23,109 nt of DNA. It comes from Coprobacillaceae bacterium UN01-12pH3A. GTDB taxonomy: Bacteria > Bacillota_I > Bacilli_A > Erysipelotrichales > Coprobacillaceae. The stretch spans positions 1 to 23,109 of the forward strand of contig JAQENU010000019.1 of NCBI GenBank assembly GCA_027676805.1. The letters are read 5' to 3'. Below, piece by piece: positions 1,385-7,104 of this stretch. The notes beneath the pieces are model-generated. The model made no database searches and was not told the origin of the DNA. It saw only the letters and a program-made list of their open reading frames with translations. The translations under genes were made by a program, and so were the position numbers. The number at the start of each line of letters is the position of its first letter. Positions within the stretch are counted from its first letter, which is position 1.

Positions 1385-1404
1385 TTTATCCCCACCGTAT
1401 TTCT

Positions 1405-1410
1405 ATTATA
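1405..1410 (-). promoter_or_regulatory. extended -10 promoter of the 56-1384 gene
   Basis: On the minus strand TATAAT is preceded by TG and one base (TGGTATAAT), 20 bases before the start codon at 1384. The -35 region is weak, which is common with an extended -10. Confidence 0.6.
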
Positions 1411-1427
1411 CCATCTATTTTGAATCC

Positions 1428-1460
1428 TGAATAATAAAAATCCAAGGAACGCTTGGATTT
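1428..1460 (-). terminator. intrinsic terminator of the envelope operon
   Basis: A perfect 9-bp stem (AAATCCAAG at 1438-1446 with CTTGGATTT at 1452-1460) has a 5-base loop. On the minus strand it runs into a T-rich tract. It lies 18 bases after the stop of the last operon gene at 1479. Confidence 0.8.
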
Positions 1461-1478
1461 CTTGTAAAGAATAGTCAT

Positions 1479-1814
1479 CTATAAGTAGAAAATAATAATC
1501 CCGATGACAATAATGATATTGCCTAATAGTTTGCGTTTTGTTATTTTCTCATTTAAAAAGAAATAACTTAAAATCATGACAATAAAATAACCGATGGATT
1601 CAATGATCGGTCCTTCTTTATAATGAAGTCCGGAAAAGGCGACTATCGTTAAGATCGTAGAAATAATCATTAAACTATAGCCGAAAATGACATAAGGATT
1701 TAAATATTCTTTTATTAATGAATCATAGTGACGATAAGTGCTTTTTTTAAGGAAAATTTGAGATATACTAGCGACAATGACGCTAATGATCAGTATCAGA
1801 TGATGTTTGTTCAT
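1479..1814 (-). CDS. SMR/EamA-type 4-TM protein, ArnE-like flippase subunit candidate (second of pair)
   Basis: This 111-residue protein has four predicted membrane helices (about 6-22, 41-62, 70-87, 95-111), the size and plan of the small multidrug resistance superfamily. The ..EKITKRKLLGN loop before the last helix is typical. The glutamate of helix 1 that drives drug export in EmrE is not present: the equivalent stretch reads SVIVASISQIFLKKS. ArnE/ArnF-type lipid flippase subunits also lack it. ATG at 1814 is chosen over TTG at 1817. No clear ribosome binding site is visible, but the start lies inside the preceding gene (32-bp overlap), so coupled translation is likely. With its partner it could flip an undecaprenyl-phosphate-linked sugar across the membrane. 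It could also be an uncharacterised SMR exporter. Confidence 0.85.
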   Translation of the reverse strand: MNKHHLILIISVIVASISQIFLKKSTYRHYDSLIKEYLNPYVIFGYSLMIISTILTIVAFSGLHYKEGPIIESIGYFIVMILSYFFLNEKITKRKLLGNIIIVIGIIIFYL

Positions 1815-2154
1815 CAAGATTGACTAGAATGATGCCGCAAATGGCAACACCGATTCCGATAATATTCATTAATGTAATGTTTTCCTTAAAAATAAATAAA
1901 GCAAAGATCACTGACCAAAGCAGTCCGGCTGCTCGGTTGGCGTAAGCAATCGAGAGATCAAAATGTTTGATGACCTGCTGCCAAAGAATCGCATAAATAC
2001 CTAAAATAAGAATTTCAATTCCATAGAATAAAATGAACTTAGGAGAGAGAAAAGTTTCATTGGAAGCAAATTTAGCGCAGACACTGGATAAAGAATAGAT
2101 AATAATCACGAGCTGCAATATAATAATGTTTTTAAATTTCGGTTTTGTTTTCAT
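1783..2154 (-). CDS. SMR/EamA-type 4-TM protein, ArnF-like flippase subunit candidate (first of pair)
   Basis: This 123-residue protein has four predicted helices (about 9-28, 38-57, 68-88, 95-113). The AYANRAAGLLWSVIF stretch followed by FKENIT matches the helix 3 to helix 4 pattern of SMR/EamA proteins. Like its partner it has no glutamate in helix 1. The two sizes (123 and 111 residues) resemble the ArnF/ArnE pair of enterobacteria. It overlaps the ATP-grasp gene by 23 bp upstream and the second SMR gene by 32 bp downstream, so the two are probably made together as a heterodimer. An AAGGAA site lies about 9 bases before the ATG. The flippase role is inferred from the surrounding aminotransferase, GT2 and GT-C genes. 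Confidence 0.87.
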   Translation of the reverse strand: MKTKPKFKNIIILQLVIIIYSLSSVCAKFASNETFLSPKFILFYGIEILILGIYAILWQQVIKHFDLSIAYANRAAGLLWSVIFALFIFKENITLMNIIGIGVAICGIILVNLDEQTSSDTDH

Positions 2155-3277
2155 GTGTAAGGATTCCTTTTAACTGATCTTTTTGATCACATTTTAAAAT
2201 AAAGTAACCATGACGGCTGCCGCTGTCAACAATCTTTAGGCTGGGATGTTCATCAAGATATATTTTATCGATCCACTGCGGATTCGTTTTTTTGATATCA
2301 TCAAGTAATTTTATGTCTTTATCACCGAATATAAAATGAATCAAGGCGACTTTAGGTTCTTGTATTTTCTGTATTTTTGGCTGAATGCCCAAAGCGATGT
2401 CCAACACATAACGGACAAAGTTATAACCGGTGGAAATCTGCACCAAGTGACTGCCGATACAGTCGCCGCCCATACGCGCCCCGATTTCAATGATTCGCAT
2501 TCCATCATTCGTTAAACGAAACTCTCCGTGAATGGCACTGTTTTGAATGTTCAGCGCTTTAAATGCCGCTAACAGCTGTGAAGAGATCATCTGTTGTGTT
2601 TTTTCATCAAGATCACTTGGCTGTAAATGAGCAGTTTCAATGAAGTGCGGGGCACCGGTCGTATACTTTTTAGTAAAGGCTAAAAAATGATATTCGCCTT
2701 GGTAAGCAAAAGCTTCCACACTGTATTCCGGTCCATCGATATATTCTTCAATAATCGCCTTTTTTTCAAAGCTGTAGTCCATTGCCTGCATGATGCACTC
2801 AGATAGTTGATCAGGACTTTCTACTTTGAATATTCCGCGGCTGCCAGAACGGTCGGTCGGCTTGACAATCACCGGGAAAGGAAAATCAATGGTTTCCTCC
2901 TTGGCAGCAACGACTTTAAAAGAAGGGGTTGGAAGGCCGGCTTTTTTTAATGCTTGACGCATGGCGTATTTATTAGTTGTATTTTTGACACATTCCATGT
3001 CATTGCAAGGCAGAGACAATCTTCTTGCCAGTTCATTGACGGTGACAGCCGCAAGATCGGAAGCAATCGAACAAATCGCATCCGGTTTTATTTTCAGACA
3101 GACTTCGTAAATCTGATCAATTTCTACAATACTGATCGGATAAAAGTAATCAGCTTGCTTTTCTCCGACATCCCCGCATTCCCACGCAAAGACGTGGGTG
3201 ATGCAGCCTTGTTTCTTAGCTTCTAAAATTAGGGGCAGCTGGAAATCATTTGCCCCTATGATGACGATATGTTTCAT
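2132..3277 (-). CDS. ATP-grasp carboxylate-amine ligase
   Basis: This 381-residue ATP-grasp enzyme resembles the biotin-carboxylase/L-amino-acid ligase branch. An N-terminal Rossmann-like domain (MKHIVIIGAND, 1-95) is followed by the ATP-grasp core: VIVKPTDRSGSRG near 136-148 (nucleotide lysine K139 and the flexible loop), IIEEYIDGPEYSVE near 175-188, and HGEFRL with IIEIGARMGGD near 250-272, whose E252 and E264 would bind magnesium. Such enzymes join a carboxylate to an amine through an acyl phosphate. The reading frame stays open to 3448, but the family start is at 3277, one base after the aminotransferase stop (TAACATG), so translation is probably coupled. Placed directly after an amino-sugar-forming transaminase, it may acylate the new amine with an amino acid or another acid, or formylate it as PurT does. 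The substrate is unknown. Confidence 0.88.
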   Translation of the reverse strand: MKHIVIIGANDFQLPLILEAKKQGCITHVFAWECGDVGEKQADYFYPISIVEIDQIYEVCLKIKPDAICSIASDLAAVTVNELARRLSLPCNDMECVKNTTNKYAMRQALKKAGLPTPSFKVVAAKEETIDFPFPVIVKPTDRSGSRGIFKVESPDQLSECIMQAMDYSFEKKAIIEEYIDGPEYSVEAFAYQGEYHFLAFTKKYTTGAPHFIETAHLQPSDLDEKTQQMISSQLLAAFKALNIQNSAIHGEFRLTNDGMRIIEIGARMGGDCIGSHLVQISTGYNFVRYVLDIALGIQPKIQKIQEPKVALIHFIFGDKDIKLLDDIKKTNPQWIDKIYLDEHPSLKIVDSGSRHGYFILKCDQKDQLKGILTHENKTEI

Positions 3278-3278
3278 G

Positions 3279-4406
3279 TTATTGATAGAAATCCTTGATT
3301 GCGTTGATGACACTGCTGATTTCATCATCGGTAATATTATAGAAAAGCGGCAGTCGTAATAAACGTTCGCTTTCTTTTGTGGTGTATTCATCAGTCCCGT
3401 GGAAATAGCCGAATTTTTGACCTGCCGGAGAGCTATGTAATGGCACATAATGGAACACGGCTTGGATTCCGTTTTCTTTTAAGTGATTTATTAATGCACT
3501 TCGCTGTGCAAGATCTTTGGTTTTGATATAAAACATATGGGCATTATGTGTGCATTCACTAGGAACATATGGAAGCTCGATATGTCCGGCTTCTGCTAGC
3601 GCGGCTAAGCCATCATAGTATTTCTGCCAAGATCTTAAACGATGGTTATTGATCGTGTCAGCCGCTTCTAACTGCGCCCAAAGGTAGGCGGCATTTAAAT
3701 CGCTTGGCAAATAGGATGACCCGTAGTCAACCCAAGTATATTTATCTACTTGCCCACGGAAGAACTTTGAACGGTTTGTTCCCTTTTCACGGCTGATCTC
3801 AGCTTTTTCTTTATACTGATCATCATTAAAAAGAATAGCTCCGCCTTCACCCATGCTGTAGTTTTTCGTTTCATGGAAGCTATAGCAGCCAAAATCACCG
3901 ATCGTTCCTAATGCTTTTCCTTTATAATAAGCGGTTACTCCCTGAGCAGCATCTTCGACTACTAAGAGATGGTGTTTTTTGGCAATCGCCATAATGGCAT
4001 CCATTTCACAGCTGACCCCTGCATAATGAACCGGCACAATAGCTTTTGTTTTATCGGTAATGGCAGCTTCGATCTTTGTTTCATCGATATTCATCGTATC
4101 CGGACGAATATCCACAAATACAATTTTAGCCCCTCTTAATACAAATGCATCGGCAGTCGAAACAAACGTATAAGAAGGCATGATGACTTCGTCACCTATC
4201 TGAATGTCACAAAGAATCGCAGCCATTTCCAAAGCATGTGTGCATGAAGTGGTTAATAAGACATTATTGATATTAAAACGTTTTTTCATCCACTCACTGC
4301 AAAGCTGAGTGAATTTTCCGTCACCGCAGATCTTATGCAGATCGACGGCTTCCTTGATATAATCCAATTCTTTTCCGACATATGGCGGACGGTTAAAATC
4401 TAGCAT
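3279..4406 (-). CDS. wecE: dTDP-4-amino-4,6-dideoxygalactose transaminase (WecE/RffA type)
   Basis: This 375-residue PLP enzyme of the DegT/DnrJ/EryC1 family has almost exactly the length of enterobacterial WecE (376). Long stretches read as WecE: FNRPPYVGKELDY at the N-terminus, GDEVIMPSYTFVSTADAF, NIDETKIEAAITDKTKAIVP, VEDAAQG near 150, SFHETKN with the PLP lysine K181, EKGTNRSKFFRGQVDKYTW, and TKESERLLRLPLFYN at the end. WecE converts dTDP-4-keto-6-deoxyglucose and glutamate to dTDP-Fuc4N. ATG at 4406 is preceded by GGGGGAGA at 8 bases. The open frame to 4478 runs back into the GT-C gene and is rejected. It starts 14 bases after the GT-C stop. No rmlA/rmlB-type genes for the precursor sugar lie in the window. 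The likeness to a proteobacterial enzyme suggests transfer between phyla, but I cannot measure identity here. Confidence 0.93.
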   Translation of the reverse strand: MLDFNRPPYVGKELDYIKEAVDLHKICGDGKFTQLCSEWMKKRFNINNVLLTTSCTHALEMAAILCDIQIGDEVIMPSYTFVSTADAFVLRGAKIVFVDIRPDTMNIDETKIEAAITDKTKAIVPVHYAGVSCEMDAIMAIAKKHHLLVVEDAAQGVTAYYKGKALGTIGDFGCYSFHETKNYSMGEGGAILFNDDQYKEKAEISREKGTNRSKFFRGQVDKYTWVDYGSSYLPSDLNAAYLWAQLEAADTINNHRLRSWQKYYDGLAALAEAGHIELPYVPSECTHNAHMFYIKTKDLAQRSALINHLKENGIQAVFHYVPLHSSPAGQKFGYFHGTDEYTTKESERLLRLPLFYNITDDEISSVINAIKDFYQ

Positions 4407-4420
4407 ATTATTTTCTCCCC

Positions 4421-5728
4421 CTAGTAGTAATATGGAATGATGATGAAAAATAAACTGTACATCAGTGTAAAGATACACGTACTACTCATTATTATAACAT
4501 AGTGCTTTTTCCATTTGAAACGTTCTAGTAAATATTGTGTCCCCAATACAATAAAGTAAGCTAACGGAATAATCATTGGCATACTGTAGCGTCCCTGCGG
4601 CTGAAAATCATTGAAATAGGAATAGTAAAGGTTTAAGAGATTCGGGATGATTAAAGCAATGAGCATTCCCCAGTTAAACAAGCCTTTCATAAATTCTTTG
4701 GAAAATAAGATTTCTTTGATCTTATAGAAGCACCCGATTACTCCCACAATAATGACCATTCCCCAAATAGGATAGAACCACAATGGCGGAAAAATCATCA
4801 TACCGCCAAAACGGGCAATGAATGAAGTTAAAAAGATCAGCAGCCATTGCTTTGATATCAGCATTTCCCATAGTGACATGTTTAGGTTGCTGGGCGAAGC
4901 GATGAGTGAGGGCTTAAATTGATCAACAGCATATAATTCTGCATAATAATTGCTGGTGCTCATGCCGATAAAATCTCCATCATATAAAAGATAGTTGCGA
5001 ATAAACCACCAACCCGCTAAAAGCAAAGCAAGAGCGGAAATATAGAGACCCTTGATCATTAACGGTTTAAACCATTGCTTTGGATGAAAATGAATCATCG
5101 AACCAATAAAAATAAAGATACTAACTAAAATAAAGCCATAAGCATTATAGTAGGACAGTGCACAGACAGCCAAACCGACAGCCAATAAAGTACAGCTTCG
5201 ATAGGACCACTGATCCTTGAAGCCGCTTAACCAGGCATAAACGATAAGTGAACAGCTGAATAAAGCCAATCCGTCATTATTGACATAGGTAAAGATAAAA
5301 GCAAACTGGGGCAGACAACCAACAAATAGGATAAACAGCCATTGCCATCGTTCCTCTTTAAAAAGGATTCGCCCGATTTTTATAGTCAGATAAATTGTTC
5401 CAACCGCTAAAACGACATTCATCATTCTGGCACCCAGCCAAAGATAATGTGCATTAGAAGTGAATAAAGAAACAACTTTCATCGGAATTGCACACAGCAT
5501 ATACGCTAAAATGGGGGTGAATGCATAGGATTGTCCCCATGTCCAATTCATGATTTCTGGATCTGCTCCATGGGGCAAGGACCCATGATTGAATATATAT
5601 TGACATATTGAATAACGCATACTCTCGTCCGGTCCGGCATTCACAGGCTGAATCATTGCCCAAAGACCGTAAAACAAAAATATACAGATTAAAAAATAGT
5701 AGTGTTTTTTCTCTAAACGATTTTCCAT
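4421..5728 (-). CDS. GT-C-type membrane glycosyltransferase (DUF2142/PMT/ArnT-like)
   Basis: This 435-residue protein is very hydrophobic, with roughly ten membrane helices. The first extracellular loop carries GPDESMRY (acidic pair at about 34-35), the position of the catalytic or metal acidic residues in GT-C enzymes. The helix 4 region reads CLPQFAFIFTYVNNDGLAL near 138-155, as in DUF2142 and PMT-like proteins. Such enzymes use a polyprenyl-phosphate sugar on the outer face of the membrane and pass the sugar to a glycopolymer or lipid. ATG at 5728 has GGAGGAA 5 bases upstream; the longer TTG start at 5740 would overlap that site and is rejected. It is first in the minus-strand operon and is followed by wecE, the ATP-grasp ligase and the SMR pair. 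The sugar donor is presumably the product of those genes plus the divergent GT2. The acceptor is unknown. Confidence 0.85.
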   Translation of the reverse strand: MENRLEKKHYYFLICIFLFYGLWAMIQPVNAGPDESMRYSICQYIFNHGSLPHGADPEIMNWTWGQSYAFTPILAYMLCAIPMKVVSLFTSNAHYLWLGARMMNVVLAVGTIYLTIKIGRILFKEERWQWLFILFVGCLPQFAFIFTYVNNDGLALFSCSLIVYAWLSGFKDQWSYRSCTLLAVGLAVCALSYYNAYGFILVSIFIFIGSMIHFHPKQWFKPLMIKGLYISALALLLAGWWFIRNYLLYDGDFIGMSTSNYYAELYAVDQFKPSLIASPSNLNMSLWEMLISKQWLLIFLTSFIARFGGMMIFPPLWFYPIWGMVIIVGVIGCFYKIKEILFSKEFMKGLFNWGMLIALIIPNLLNLYYSYFNDFQPQGRYSMPMIIPLAYFIVLGTQYLLERFKWKKHYVIIMSSTCIFTLMYSLFFIIIPYYY

Positions 5729-5747
5729 AACTTCCTCCAATGGTTAA

Positions 5748-5776
5748 ATAATAGCATTTATGAGGGATTTCTACAA
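5748..5776 (-). promoter_or_regulatory. promoter of the envelope operon
   Basis: On the minus strand TTGTAG (5771-5776) and TATTAT (5748-5753) are separated by exactly 17 bases. TGC sits just before the -10, giving an extended -10. It is placed about 20 bases before the GT-C start at 5728. Confidence 0.7.
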
Positions 5777-5790
5777 GTTTACCCTTTAAA

Positions 5791-5813
5791 TAATTCGGAT
5801 TAAATGATATGAT
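5791..5813 (+). promoter_or_regulatory. weak promoter candidate for the GT2 gene
   Basis: A TATGAT -10 lies at 5808-5813, with only a weak TTTAAA-like -35 seventeen bases upstream. It would give a very short 5' leader before 5832. It faces away from the envelope operon promoter. Confidence 0.35.
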
Positions 5814-5831
5814 TGATAACTGGTGATAAAT

Positions 5832-6782
5832 ATGAAAAAAATATCAATAATTGTACCGGTTTATTATAATGAAGATAATCTTTTGCCACTATATGCGGAT
5901 TTAAAGGAAAAAGTGCTGGATCCGATTCAGCATCGTTATCGTTATGAGATTGTCATGGTGGACGACGGTTCTAAAGATCGCTCGTTTGAAGTGATGAATC
6001 ATCTTGCCAGTATCGATGAACATATCAAGATCTATAAACTTTCTCGTAATTTTGGTGAGCATTCTGCTTTGTTAGCGGGGTTGAATGTCTGTACCGGCGA
6101 TATAGCGGTCAGAAAAGCGGCAGATTTACAGGAGCCTAGTGAAATGATTCTTGATATGCTTAAAGAATATGAAGAAGGCAATTCCGTCATACTGGCCGTC
6201 AGAGAAGGACGGGAAGAATCGGAGGGACAAAAGTTCTTTTCCAATCTTTATGCCTATCTGATGCGTAAATTTGCTTTATCCAATATGCCAAAAGGCGGAT
6301 TTGACTCATTTATGATCGATCGTCAGGTCATTGATACCCTGATTCAAATGAATGAAAAAAACACCTCGCTGATGGCACAGGTGTTATGGTGCGGGTTTCC
6401 TACCAGCCGAATTGGCTATGTACGTAAAAAGCGTGAAATCGGAACGTCAAAATGGACCTTGTCGAAGAAAATTAAGCTGGTGTTGGATTCACTGCTAGGG
6501 TTCTCCTATTTTCCGATTCGCTGTATTTTAATGATCGGGGCAGCCAGCTTCGTGATATCGTTTATCTGGTCGATCGTACTGATTGTTCAGAGGCTGATGA
6601 ATATCATTACGGTAGAGGGCTATACGACTATCATTATTTTAATTTTATTTGCGTTTAGTATCATCATGGGCTCTTTGGGTATTTTAGGAGAATATATCTG
6701 GCGTATGTTTGATGCAACTCGCAACCGTCCGCCGTTTATCTTTGATCATCGGACTAAAGAAGAAATGACAAAATCTAAATAA
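5832..6782 (+). CDS. polyprenyl-phosphate glycosyltransferase, GT2 (GtrB/ArnC/CsbB type)
   Basis: This 316-residue protein has the GT2 fold at residues 1-225 (IIVPVYYNEDN at 6-16, VDDGSKDRS at 43-51, LSRNFGEHSALLAG at 70-83, REIGTSKWT at 201-209). Two C-terminal membrane helices follow, at about 233-253 and 265-287. This is the plan of enzymes that load a sugar from a nucleotide onto undecaprenyl phosphate on the inner face. The usual DAD of the DADLQ.P motif reads AAD here (AADLQEP at 96-102), so the first aspartate is missing. ATG at 5832 with GGTGAT upstream is preferred over GTG at 5823. It is divergent from the wecE operon and very likely supplies its lipid-linked sugar. It is closed by a terminator at 6788-6821. 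Confidence 0.9.
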   Translation: MKKISIIVPVYYNEDNLLPLYADLKEKVLDPIQHRYRYEIVMVDDGSKDRSFEVMNHLASIDEHIKIYKLSRNFGEHSALLAGLNVCTGDIAVRKAADLQEPSEMILDMLKEYEEGNSVILAVREGREESEGQKFFSNLYAYLMRKFALSNMPKGGFDSFMIDRQVIDTLIQMNEKNTSLMAQVLWCGFPTSRIGYVRKKREIGTSKWTLSKKIKLVLDSLLGFSYFPIRCILMIGAASFVISFIWSIVLIVQRLMNIITVEGYTTIIILILFAFSIIMGSLGILGEYIWRMFDATRNRPPFIFDHRTKEEMTKSK

Positions 6783-6787
6783 TACAT

Positions 6788-6821
6788 AAAAATCATGGGA
6801 ATAGTTGCCCATGATTTTTTT
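6788..6821. terminator. bidirectional intrinsic terminator
   Basis: A 12-bp stem (AAAAATCATGGG at 6788-6799 with CCCATGATTTTT from 6808) has an 8-base loop. It is followed by T on + and flanked by A, so it can also act on the minus strand. It sits between the convergent GT2 and DUF421-like genes and touches the stop of the latter. Confidence 0.85.
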
Positions 6822-7056
6822 AGGTACGCTTTCTTATGATAAGGATGGCGATCCAGTAAATGGCAATGATGCTCAGCATGACTGCGAACTGATCCAACGG
6901 TCCGGTTGCCATTTTAGCGGCAATGAGACAAAAGGTAATGCCAATCACATAATCATATAATGTGAGATGCTTTATTTCTTTGCCGCCCCATAGCTTAACG
7001 GTAATACATAATACGATAATGGAACTGACAGCCATCACGATCGTTTCTAAAATCAT
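6820..7056 (-). CDS. short DUF421/YetF-like membrane domain protein
   Basis: This 78-residue protein has three predicted helices (about 5-21, 36-50, 57-74). The KLWGGKEIKHLTLYDYVIGI stretch matches the GK..I..LT.fDyVigI signature of the N-terminal membrane part of DUF421 (YetF/YdfS-type) proteins. The soluble C-terminal domain those proteins carry is absent. After the stop there is only the shared terminator, so no remnant is left. ATG at 7056 has GAGGTG 6 bases upstream, better than the longer frame up to 7104. It may be a natural minimal form or the stable product of an old truncation. The function of the family is poorly known; roles in envelope or spore membrane have been reported for some members. 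Confidence 0.7.
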   Translation of the reverse strand: MILETIVMAVSSIIVLCITVKLWGGKEIKHLTLYDYVIGITFCLIAAKMATGPLDQFAVMLSIIAIYWIAILIIRKRT

Positions 7057-7074
7057 CCTCTTCACCTCAAAATA

Positions 7075-7104
7075 AGTATAACCATTTCTATTATTAGTAA
7101 ACAA
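7075..7104 (-). promoter_or_regulatory. promoter of the DUF421-like gene
   Basis: On the minus strand TTGTTT (7099-7104) and TATACT (7075-7080) are 18 bases apart. They lie just upstream of the GAGGTG site. Confidence 0.55.

Follow-up and report, generated by a model that had tools for sequence, protein, structure and literature searches.

We analysed a 23,109-nucleotide stretch of DNA from Coprobacillaceae bacterium UN01-12pH3A (contig JAQENU010000019.1, forward strand; hereafter the window), in which six adjacent genes had been proposed, in an earlier note made from the sequence, to encode a lipid-linked amino-sugar pathway that works like the Arn modification of lipid A. The open reading frames (ORFs) of the window, together with family searches, place all six genes within positions 1479-6782, as that note had described. 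The gene starts given below are probable ones, set by eye from alignments of relatives, and all lie downstream of the starts of the longest ORFs. The features are as follows (GT, glycosyltransferase; SMR, small multidrug resistance; TM, transmembrane).

5832-6782, plus strand: divergent GT2, a GtrB/ArnC-like polyprenyl-phosphate sugar transferase with two C-terminal TM helices (PF00535 and profile alignment).
4421-5728, minus strand: GT-C membrane glycosyltransferase with DUF2142 relatives, presumed to transfer the sugar outside the cell (predicted fold and relatives).
3279-4406, minus strand: WecE-type transaminase, predicted to convert dTDP-4-keto-6-deoxyglucose to dTDP-4-amino-4,6-dideoxygalactose (dTDP-Fuc4N) (family cut-offs).
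2132-3277, minus strand: ATP-grasp ligase, proposed to amidate the 4-amine of the sugar with an amino acid or other carboxylic acid (ATP-grasp_4).
1783-2154, minus strand: SMR1, ArnE-like, one half of the proposed flippase (PF00893).
1479-1814, minus strand: SMR2, EamA-like, the second half of the proposed flippase (PF00892).
1385-1478, minus strand: stretch between SMR2 and the next gene with a terminator-like hairpin, the probable end of the operon (fold of -11.1 kcal/mol, T-rich tail).

The minus-strand operon (5728 to 1479) begins with GT-C, followed by WecE, ATP-grasp, SMR1 and SMR2. GT-C and WecE are separated by 14 bases and WecE and ATP-grasp by 1, the ATP-grasp and SMR1 genes overlap by 23 bases and the two SMR genes by 32, and a 103-base divergent stretch leads to GT2. 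Because the hairpin with its T-rich run lies directly 3′ of SMR2, the neighbouring gene for a 442-amino-acid protein is probably outside the operon. The hairpin is absent from the output of a consensus scan, which gave 23 promoter and 3 terminator sites in the window, no more than in shuffled sequences. A Gram-positive origin, assumed in the earlier note, is supported by 12.2 kb of colinearity with Beduini massiliensis GM1 (class Erysipelotrichia, Bacillota) in two blocks of 83.8 and 87.1% nucleotide identity. We rejected a plasmid origin, as positions 1479-6782 had no megablast match in the plasmid collection. The ATP-grasp protein is 84% identical (319/381) to its B. massiliensis counterpart, compared with 92-98% for each of the remaining five proteins of the set, which indicates that the ligase is evolving faster.

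A scan of the genome_contigs collection with an alignment of ATP-grasp proteins returned 451 confirmed relatives, and the locus counts that follow refer to the best 80 of these 451 (L numbers denote loci, G numbers genomes). Nine of the 80 loci (L001, L002, L017, L020, L035, L043, L058, L059 and L067) reproduce the full six-gene arrangement, with gene order and strands unchanged, a divergent GT2 and a DUF2142-type GT-C. Two others are near-identical: in L047 the GT2 lies downstream on the same strand, and L008 holds five of the genes, with the GT2 on another contig of its genome. All 11 genomes that bear these loci (hereafter set-bearing genomes, most of them metagenome-assembled genomes, or MAGs) contain a single GT2 of this kind at E ≤ 1e-60 and a single strong SMR1 match, at the locus. 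A WecE gene (called at more than 250 bits) shares the locus in 72 of the 80 cases, and an SMR pair lies within 7 kb of the ATP-grasp gene, midpoint to midpoint, in 58; for the 51 loci whose flanks each reach 5 kb or more, these counts are 47 and 39. In the majority of the remaining loci, a core of WecE, ATP-grasp and SMR pair is retained, accompanied by a less similar GT2 (21-33% identity) and by different partners. Records with this module are titled Beduini, Hespellia, Blautia, Lachnospiraceae, Oscillospiraceae and others, and since the set recurs in distant Firmicutes we regard it as more than a chance arrangement. The neighbourhood search proposed in the earlier note thus finds the genes together in other genomes, where their dispersal would have told against a shared pathway.

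This association also appears in samples chosen independently of the ATP-grasp gene, comprising 392 genomes from the phylum of G001 and 398 from that of G005 (790 in all). At most 4 or at most 11 best candidates per genome were scored, so that misses are possible, and SMR1 was called at E ≤ 1e-12. SMR1 and a close ATP-grasp were each present in 6 genomes of the G001 phylum and co-occurred in 5, and in the G005 phylum the corresponding numbers were 6, 6 and 3 (hypergeometric P of 4.8e-10 and 3.8e-5, or 2.6e-8 and 1.3e-3 without the centre genomes G001 and G005, which had been chosen as carriers of the set; all four values ignore kinship). Among the 12 of 790 genomes with the SMR1 family, the neighbourhood contains WecE in 11, GT2 in 11 and some ATP-grasp in 10, two of which (G337 and G789) have a diverged ATP-grasp. 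Once G001 and G005 are left out, 10 SMR1 clusters remain, with WecE in 9, GT2 in 9 and an ATP-grasp in 8.

The transaminase is firmly assigned to the WecE family and is thereby predicted to form dTDP-Fuc4N. It scores 659.8 bits against the WecE equivalog NF008687 (cut-off 375) and 650.9 bits against TIGR02379 (cut-off 434.85), and reaches 205.7 bits against the ArnB model NF008658 (cut-off 631). Among structures in the PDB, it matches dTDP-4-amino-4,6-dideoxygalactose transaminase 4piw at 591 bits and ArnB 1mdo at 166 bits. A look for rmlB, which the earlier note had proposed together with rmlA, found it over its cut-off in 9 of the 11 set-bearing genomes (the match in G006 contains two stops), and supports the supply of the sugar.

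The GT2 (PF00535, 78.8 bits; cut-off 23.3) aligns by profile from end to end with GtrB 5ekp (287 bits) and ArnC 9hwj (257 bits). This full-length alignment bears out the two C-terminal helices described before and points to a GT-A-fold polyprenyl-phosphate-sugar synthase, with its activity predicted and its DxD motif altered. Its best NCBIfam match is PgfS, at 200.8 bits and thus under the cut-off of 500. At 6108-6137 the protein reads VRKAADLQEP in place of the IDADLQDP of GtrB, so that the first Asp of DxD is lost. All 11 aligned members of the set have the form RK[AS]ADLQEP, the first Asp is kept in six other aligned GT2s, and [VI]RKA[AT]DLQEP is present in the nearest 120 of 7310 GT2 relatives. 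Because the motif is conserved, our reading is that the change probably reflects a changed donor or metal site rather than decay.

The GT-C of the window has no Pfam match at E ≤ 0.001, and for its relative in L017, DUF2142 scores 56.6 bits (cut-off 30.1) and PMT families match as well. Since these GT-C proteins have no PDB relatives by sequence at E ≤ 1, we compared folds: the predicted model has the ALG12/PMT/ArnT fold, consistent with an ArnT-type GT-C enzyme and with the GT-C-fold transferases of multi-component glycosylation systems.

Pfam assigns the two small membrane proteins, SMR1 to Multi_Drug_Res (PF00893, 26 bits; cut-off 23.7) and SMR2 to EamA (PF00892, 32.6 bits; cut-off 28.2). 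SMR2 has no NCBIfam match, and SMR1 has no PDB relative by sequence at E ≤ 0.01. The best NCBIfam match of SMR1 is ArnE (34 bits; cut-off 92), with QacG at 31.1 bits and ArnF at 21.7 bits (cut-off 99), so that both Arn scores fall short of their equivalog cut-offs. Consistent with the earlier observation that the export glutamate is missing, TM1, as assigned from hydropathy, is free of acidic residues in both SMR1 and SMR2; conserved acidic residues lie outside it (for example, E47 of SMR1 in 16/20 sequences and E72 of SMR2 in 18/20). Paired subunits without the central TM1 glutamate, here from overlapping genes, are the traits of the lipid-flippase subtype of SMR proteins. None of the six window proteins has a GtrA or Wzx match in Pfam, and the SMR/EamA pair stands in their stead, with a predicted flipping role. 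The family assignments and the conserved set support the idea that an SMR pair occupies the flippase position rather than GtcA. According to parts of an SMR review, the lipid and polyamine subtypes occur mainly in Proteobacteria (PMC9574504), and a passage of a Listeria paper names SMR transporters such as E. coli ArnE/ArnF as a third class of carriers for lipid-linked sugars, counting GtrA of phage SfX as another carrier of the SMR class (PMC7389260).

The pair might instead export a small amine or drug and sit in the operon by chance, with a GtrA or Wzx protein encoded elsewhere flipping the lipid. Weak matches to QacG and EbrB come close behind ArnE, GtrA-type proteins are present in 10 of the 11 set-bearing genomes, and in G570 the pair occurs without sugar genes, all of which would fit such an exporter. 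We consider it improbable, because TM1 is acid-free in both subunits, unlike that of the proton-coupled SMR exporters described in part of the review above (PMC9574504), because the pair lies beside GT2 and WecE in 11 of the 12 SMR1 clusters of the two phylum samples, and because G001, the closest named genome, has no GtrA match. Given the GtrA-type proteins, the SMR pair need not be the sole route across the membrane, and most set-bearing bacteria may hold another, ordinary three-component system. The G570 pair (L103:7896-8620), which adjoins large membrane proteins and lacks WecE, ATP-grasp and GT2, indicates at least one other setting for such pairs; its neighbours look by eye like what we take to be LicD, MBOAT and IspD proteins. 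A fragmented SMR1-like copy with internal stops occurs in G012 (L085/L092), a genome of the same family. SMR1 is found at E < 1e-30 in 4 of 43 genomes of the G012 family, in which the set is patchy.

The ATP-grasp protein, among the most constant partners, was left without a role in the earlier comparison with Arn. It matches ATP-grasp_4 at 89.4 bits (cut-off 27), and its profile finds in the PDB 4dim (152 bits; deposited as phosphoribosylglycinamide synthetase), the L-amino acid ligase 3vot (151.9 bits) and BacD (about 89 bits). K139, E177, E178, E252, E264 and R268 are invariant in 30 aligned sequences, and we take K139, E252, E264 and R268 to be nucleotide and metal residues. By family and invariant residues the enzyme shares the ATP-grasp core of the L-amino acid ligases BL00235 and BacD (151.9 and about 89 bits). 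Those ligases join free amino acids and carry LAL_C2, whereas a sugar amine is proposed as the substrate here and LAL_C2 (PF18603) is not among the Pfam matches of the window enzyme at E ≤ 0.001.

Relatives at other loci bear on its substrate. In Candidatus Blautia intestinavium (L013:8947-11121), the orthologue, which shares 51% identity, carries a fused PALP domain whose nearest relatives are cysteate sulfo-lyase, D-cysteine desulfhydrase and ACC deaminase. The following gene encodes a second ATP-grasp with LAL_C2, the C-terminal domain of L-amino-acid ligases. With Pfam applied to L013 only, 11 of the 12 other loci titled Blautia carry an ATP-grasp ORF of 702-737 amino acids followed by one of 395-425 amino acids; the twelfth is truncated at the edge of its locus. 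A cluster in L098 (5650-13770) encodes an NDP-hexose 2,3-dehydratase, a GFO/IDH/MocA oxidoreductase, a ketopantoate-reductase-like enzyme and three ATP-grasps, and L101, also with three ATP-grasps, resembles it by eye; their product is perhaps a 4-amino-2,4,6-trideoxy sugar bearing a composite acyl group. The gene content of L013, L098 and L101 is as would be expected if a nucleotide-linked 4-amino sugar were tailored and its amine acylated. The ATP-grasp resembles L-amino-acid ligases most closely, and its Blautia orthologue is fused to a pyridoxal-phosphate enzyme of amino-acid metabolism, so the ligase probably acylates the sugar amine. What the lipid carries is then probably a 4-amino-4,6-dideoxyhexose with an N-aminoacyl (or acyl) group. 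There is precedent in Gram-negative surface glycans, in which N-acetylalanyl and related 4-amino-4,6-dideoxyhexoses occur, as does an N-alanyl form, according to part of one report (PMC3210612). A gene-neighbourhood paper describes, in part of its text, a modified-sugar cluster of Clostridium acetobutylicum that includes an ATP-grasp amino acyl ligase; unlike the window set, this cluster shows no SMR pair in the portion of the table covering it (PMC4000134).

A simpler logic closer to Arn would have the sugar exported with a free, or later freed, amine while the ATP-grasp makes something else, such as a small peptide or polymer precursor. The substrate specificity of the enzyme is unreadable from its sequence and its best PDB relatives are 4dim and the L-amino acid ligases, both of which would allow this. 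The presence of WecE in 72 of its 80 loci, its position 1 base after WecE and overlapping SMR1, and the three ATP-grasps in clusters that tailor the sugar differently (L098 and L101) argue the other way, and we judge this reading unlikely.

We therefore favour a pathway in which the amino sugar is capped before export. RmlA and RmlB, encoded elsewhere, would supply dTDP-4-keto-6-deoxyglucose, and WecE, the firmly assigned step, would aminate C4 to give dTDP-Fuc4N. The ATP-grasp would convert a carboxylic acid, an amino acid being the likeliest, to its acyl phosphate and couple it to the 4-amine; this capping would correspond to the N-formylation that ArnA performs in Arn and would pull the reversible transamination forward. 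On the basis of alignment, fold and context, GT2 would then load the capped sugar onto undecaprenyl phosphate and GT-C would transfer it on the outer face, the SMR heterodimer, which lacks the proton-binding TM1 glutamate, having presumably let the lipid-linked sugar across the membrane. The acceptor may be a wall glycan, teichoic acid, glycolipid or protein; we infer both it and the order of the steps. As a whole, this pathway is in our view probable on the sequence evidence. Of the original proposal that the six genes form one lipid-linked amino-sugar pathway working like Arn, the co-conservation is thus borne out, and the joint action is still inferential.

Several observations weigh against this pathway. 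The GT2 of the set lacks the first Asp of DxD, and the altered motif could mean a different reaction. The three findings that would fit an exporter count here too, namely the ArnE score of SMR1 that barely exceeds those of the Qac models, the widespread GtrA-type proteins and the solitary pair of G570. No SMR pair is in reach in 22 of the 80 loci, although in 12 of these the flanks extend 5 kb or more each way, and only the three genomes noted above in the G005 phylum sample combine SMR1 with a close ATP-grasp. In G740, no ATP-grasp is found on the 7 kb contig, and the WecE is a fragment at the contig end. rmlB scores below its cut-off in two of the 11 set-bearing genomes, both of them MAGs. 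Finally, the WecE relatives in L098, L099, L101 and L107 are only 51-55% identical to that of the window and may make another amino sugar.

The likeness to Arn is one of functional logic and does not extend to protein identity. Arn (ArnB, ArnC, ArnE/ArnF and ArnT of E. coli and Salmonella) acts on lipid A, with formylation by ArnA and deformylation by ArnD, whereas the set lies in a Gram-positive host, has a WecE-type rather than an ArnB-type transaminase and carries an ATP-grasp where Arn has ArnA and ArnD. No gene of the set is assigned as ArnA or ArnD, GT2 reaches 155 bits against the ArnC equivalog NF007986 (cut-off 529), and SMR2 matches neither ArnE nor ArnF. As no part exceeds an Arn family cut-off, we rejected membership of Arn. 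The Gram-positive systems CsbB-GtcA-YfhO, GtlA-GtcA-GtlB and GacI/J/K/L share with the set a polyprenyl-phosphate-sugar synthase, a flippase and a GT-C-fold transferase, according to sections of a 2021 review (PMC8035078). Those sections name GtrA-type and Wzx-type flippases, in contrast to the SMR pair here, and galactose and N-acetylglucosamine as the sugars, with no transaminase or ligase (PMC8035078). SMR and ArnE have no mention in the main text of that review, and aminoarabinose has one (PMC8035078). Ribofuranosylation in Citrobacter youngae (GT136) likewise combines a charging enzyme, a four-helix flippase resembling EmrE/ArnE and a GT-C; in the portion of the report that describes it, and unlike here, the transporter is modelled as a homodimer, the pentofuranose comes from phosphoribosyl pyrophosphate (PRPP) and the product is a Gram-negative O antigen (PMC11127046).

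As acceptor, the earlier note suggested a teichoic acid, glycolipid or other wall polymer. Teichoic acid is not borne out as a general acceptor, because LtaS-type sulfatase-fold matches (PF00884 at E ≤ 1e-25, a strict threshold, in genomes that are mostly MAGs) occur in 5 of the 11 set-bearing genomes, and we rejected LtaS-type lipoteichoic acid as universal acceptor. RgpF, a rhamnan enzyme considered as another clue, was found in 0 of the 11. The GT-C slot differs among clusters, with DUF2142 in the window and YfhO in L097, and this variation suggests that one donor type serves several acceptors. A protein is as open as a wall polymer. In the Pgf system of Streptococcus mutans (PgfS, PgfM1, PgfE and PgfM2), which resembles the set in its PgfS-like GT2 and multi-spanning partner proteins, the four-gene operon comprises the epimerase PgfE and two membrane proteins without WecE, ATP-grasp or SMR pair, as part of one paper describes (PMC5856776). 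With a PMT-like GT-C, the window set could glycosylate a surface protein in the manner of streptococcal Pgf, and the donor half of the capped-sugar pathway would be compatible with this; we hold such protein glycosylation to be rather doubtful.

What would be new is an SMR pair in the flippase position of a multi-component glycosylation system of otherwise known type, this kind of flippase having been described mainly in Gram-negatives. Among the titles and abstract openings listed from the open literature, subscription papers not being covered, none described a Gram-positive in which an SMR pair accompanies WecE or an ATP-grasp, nor did the searches turn up any chemical description of a surface amino-acid-bearing deoxysugar in the gut commensals that carry the module. 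If the pathway operates as proposed, Gram-positives would use a third kind of flippase for lipid-linked sugars, and these commensals would display such a deoxysugar on their surface, with a possible bearing on immune recognition, tolerance of cationic peptides and phage receptors. More tentatively, the module might be a general undecaprenyl-phosphate export route in gut Firmicutes for aminoacyl, even peptidyl, sugars, in which a constant part (a 4-amino-sugar transaminase, one to three ATP-grasps, GT2 and the SMR-pair flippase, with capping inside the cell) is joined to an interchangeable GT-C (DUF2142, YfhO or others). We regard this extension as conceivable rather than probable; were it true, it would offer a genetically coded alternative to D-alanylation for placing amino acids and charge on the surface. 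The set is compact, so that donor synthesis, flipping and transfer can be separated gene by gene, and the constant module with exchangeable GT-C parts makes the choice of acceptor testable.

Two neighbouring genes flank the set. On the minus strand at 56-1384, a 442-amino-acid protein without a Pfam family has an N-terminal hydrophobic stretch and two copies of a PAGEY motif, and a 72% identical copy adjoins the same operon in B. massiliensis (L001). On the other side, a 94-amino-acid membrane ORF (6820-7104, minus strand), also without a Pfam family, is convergent with GT2 and is found in L001 too; a terminator-like hairpin lies between the two at 6788-6819.

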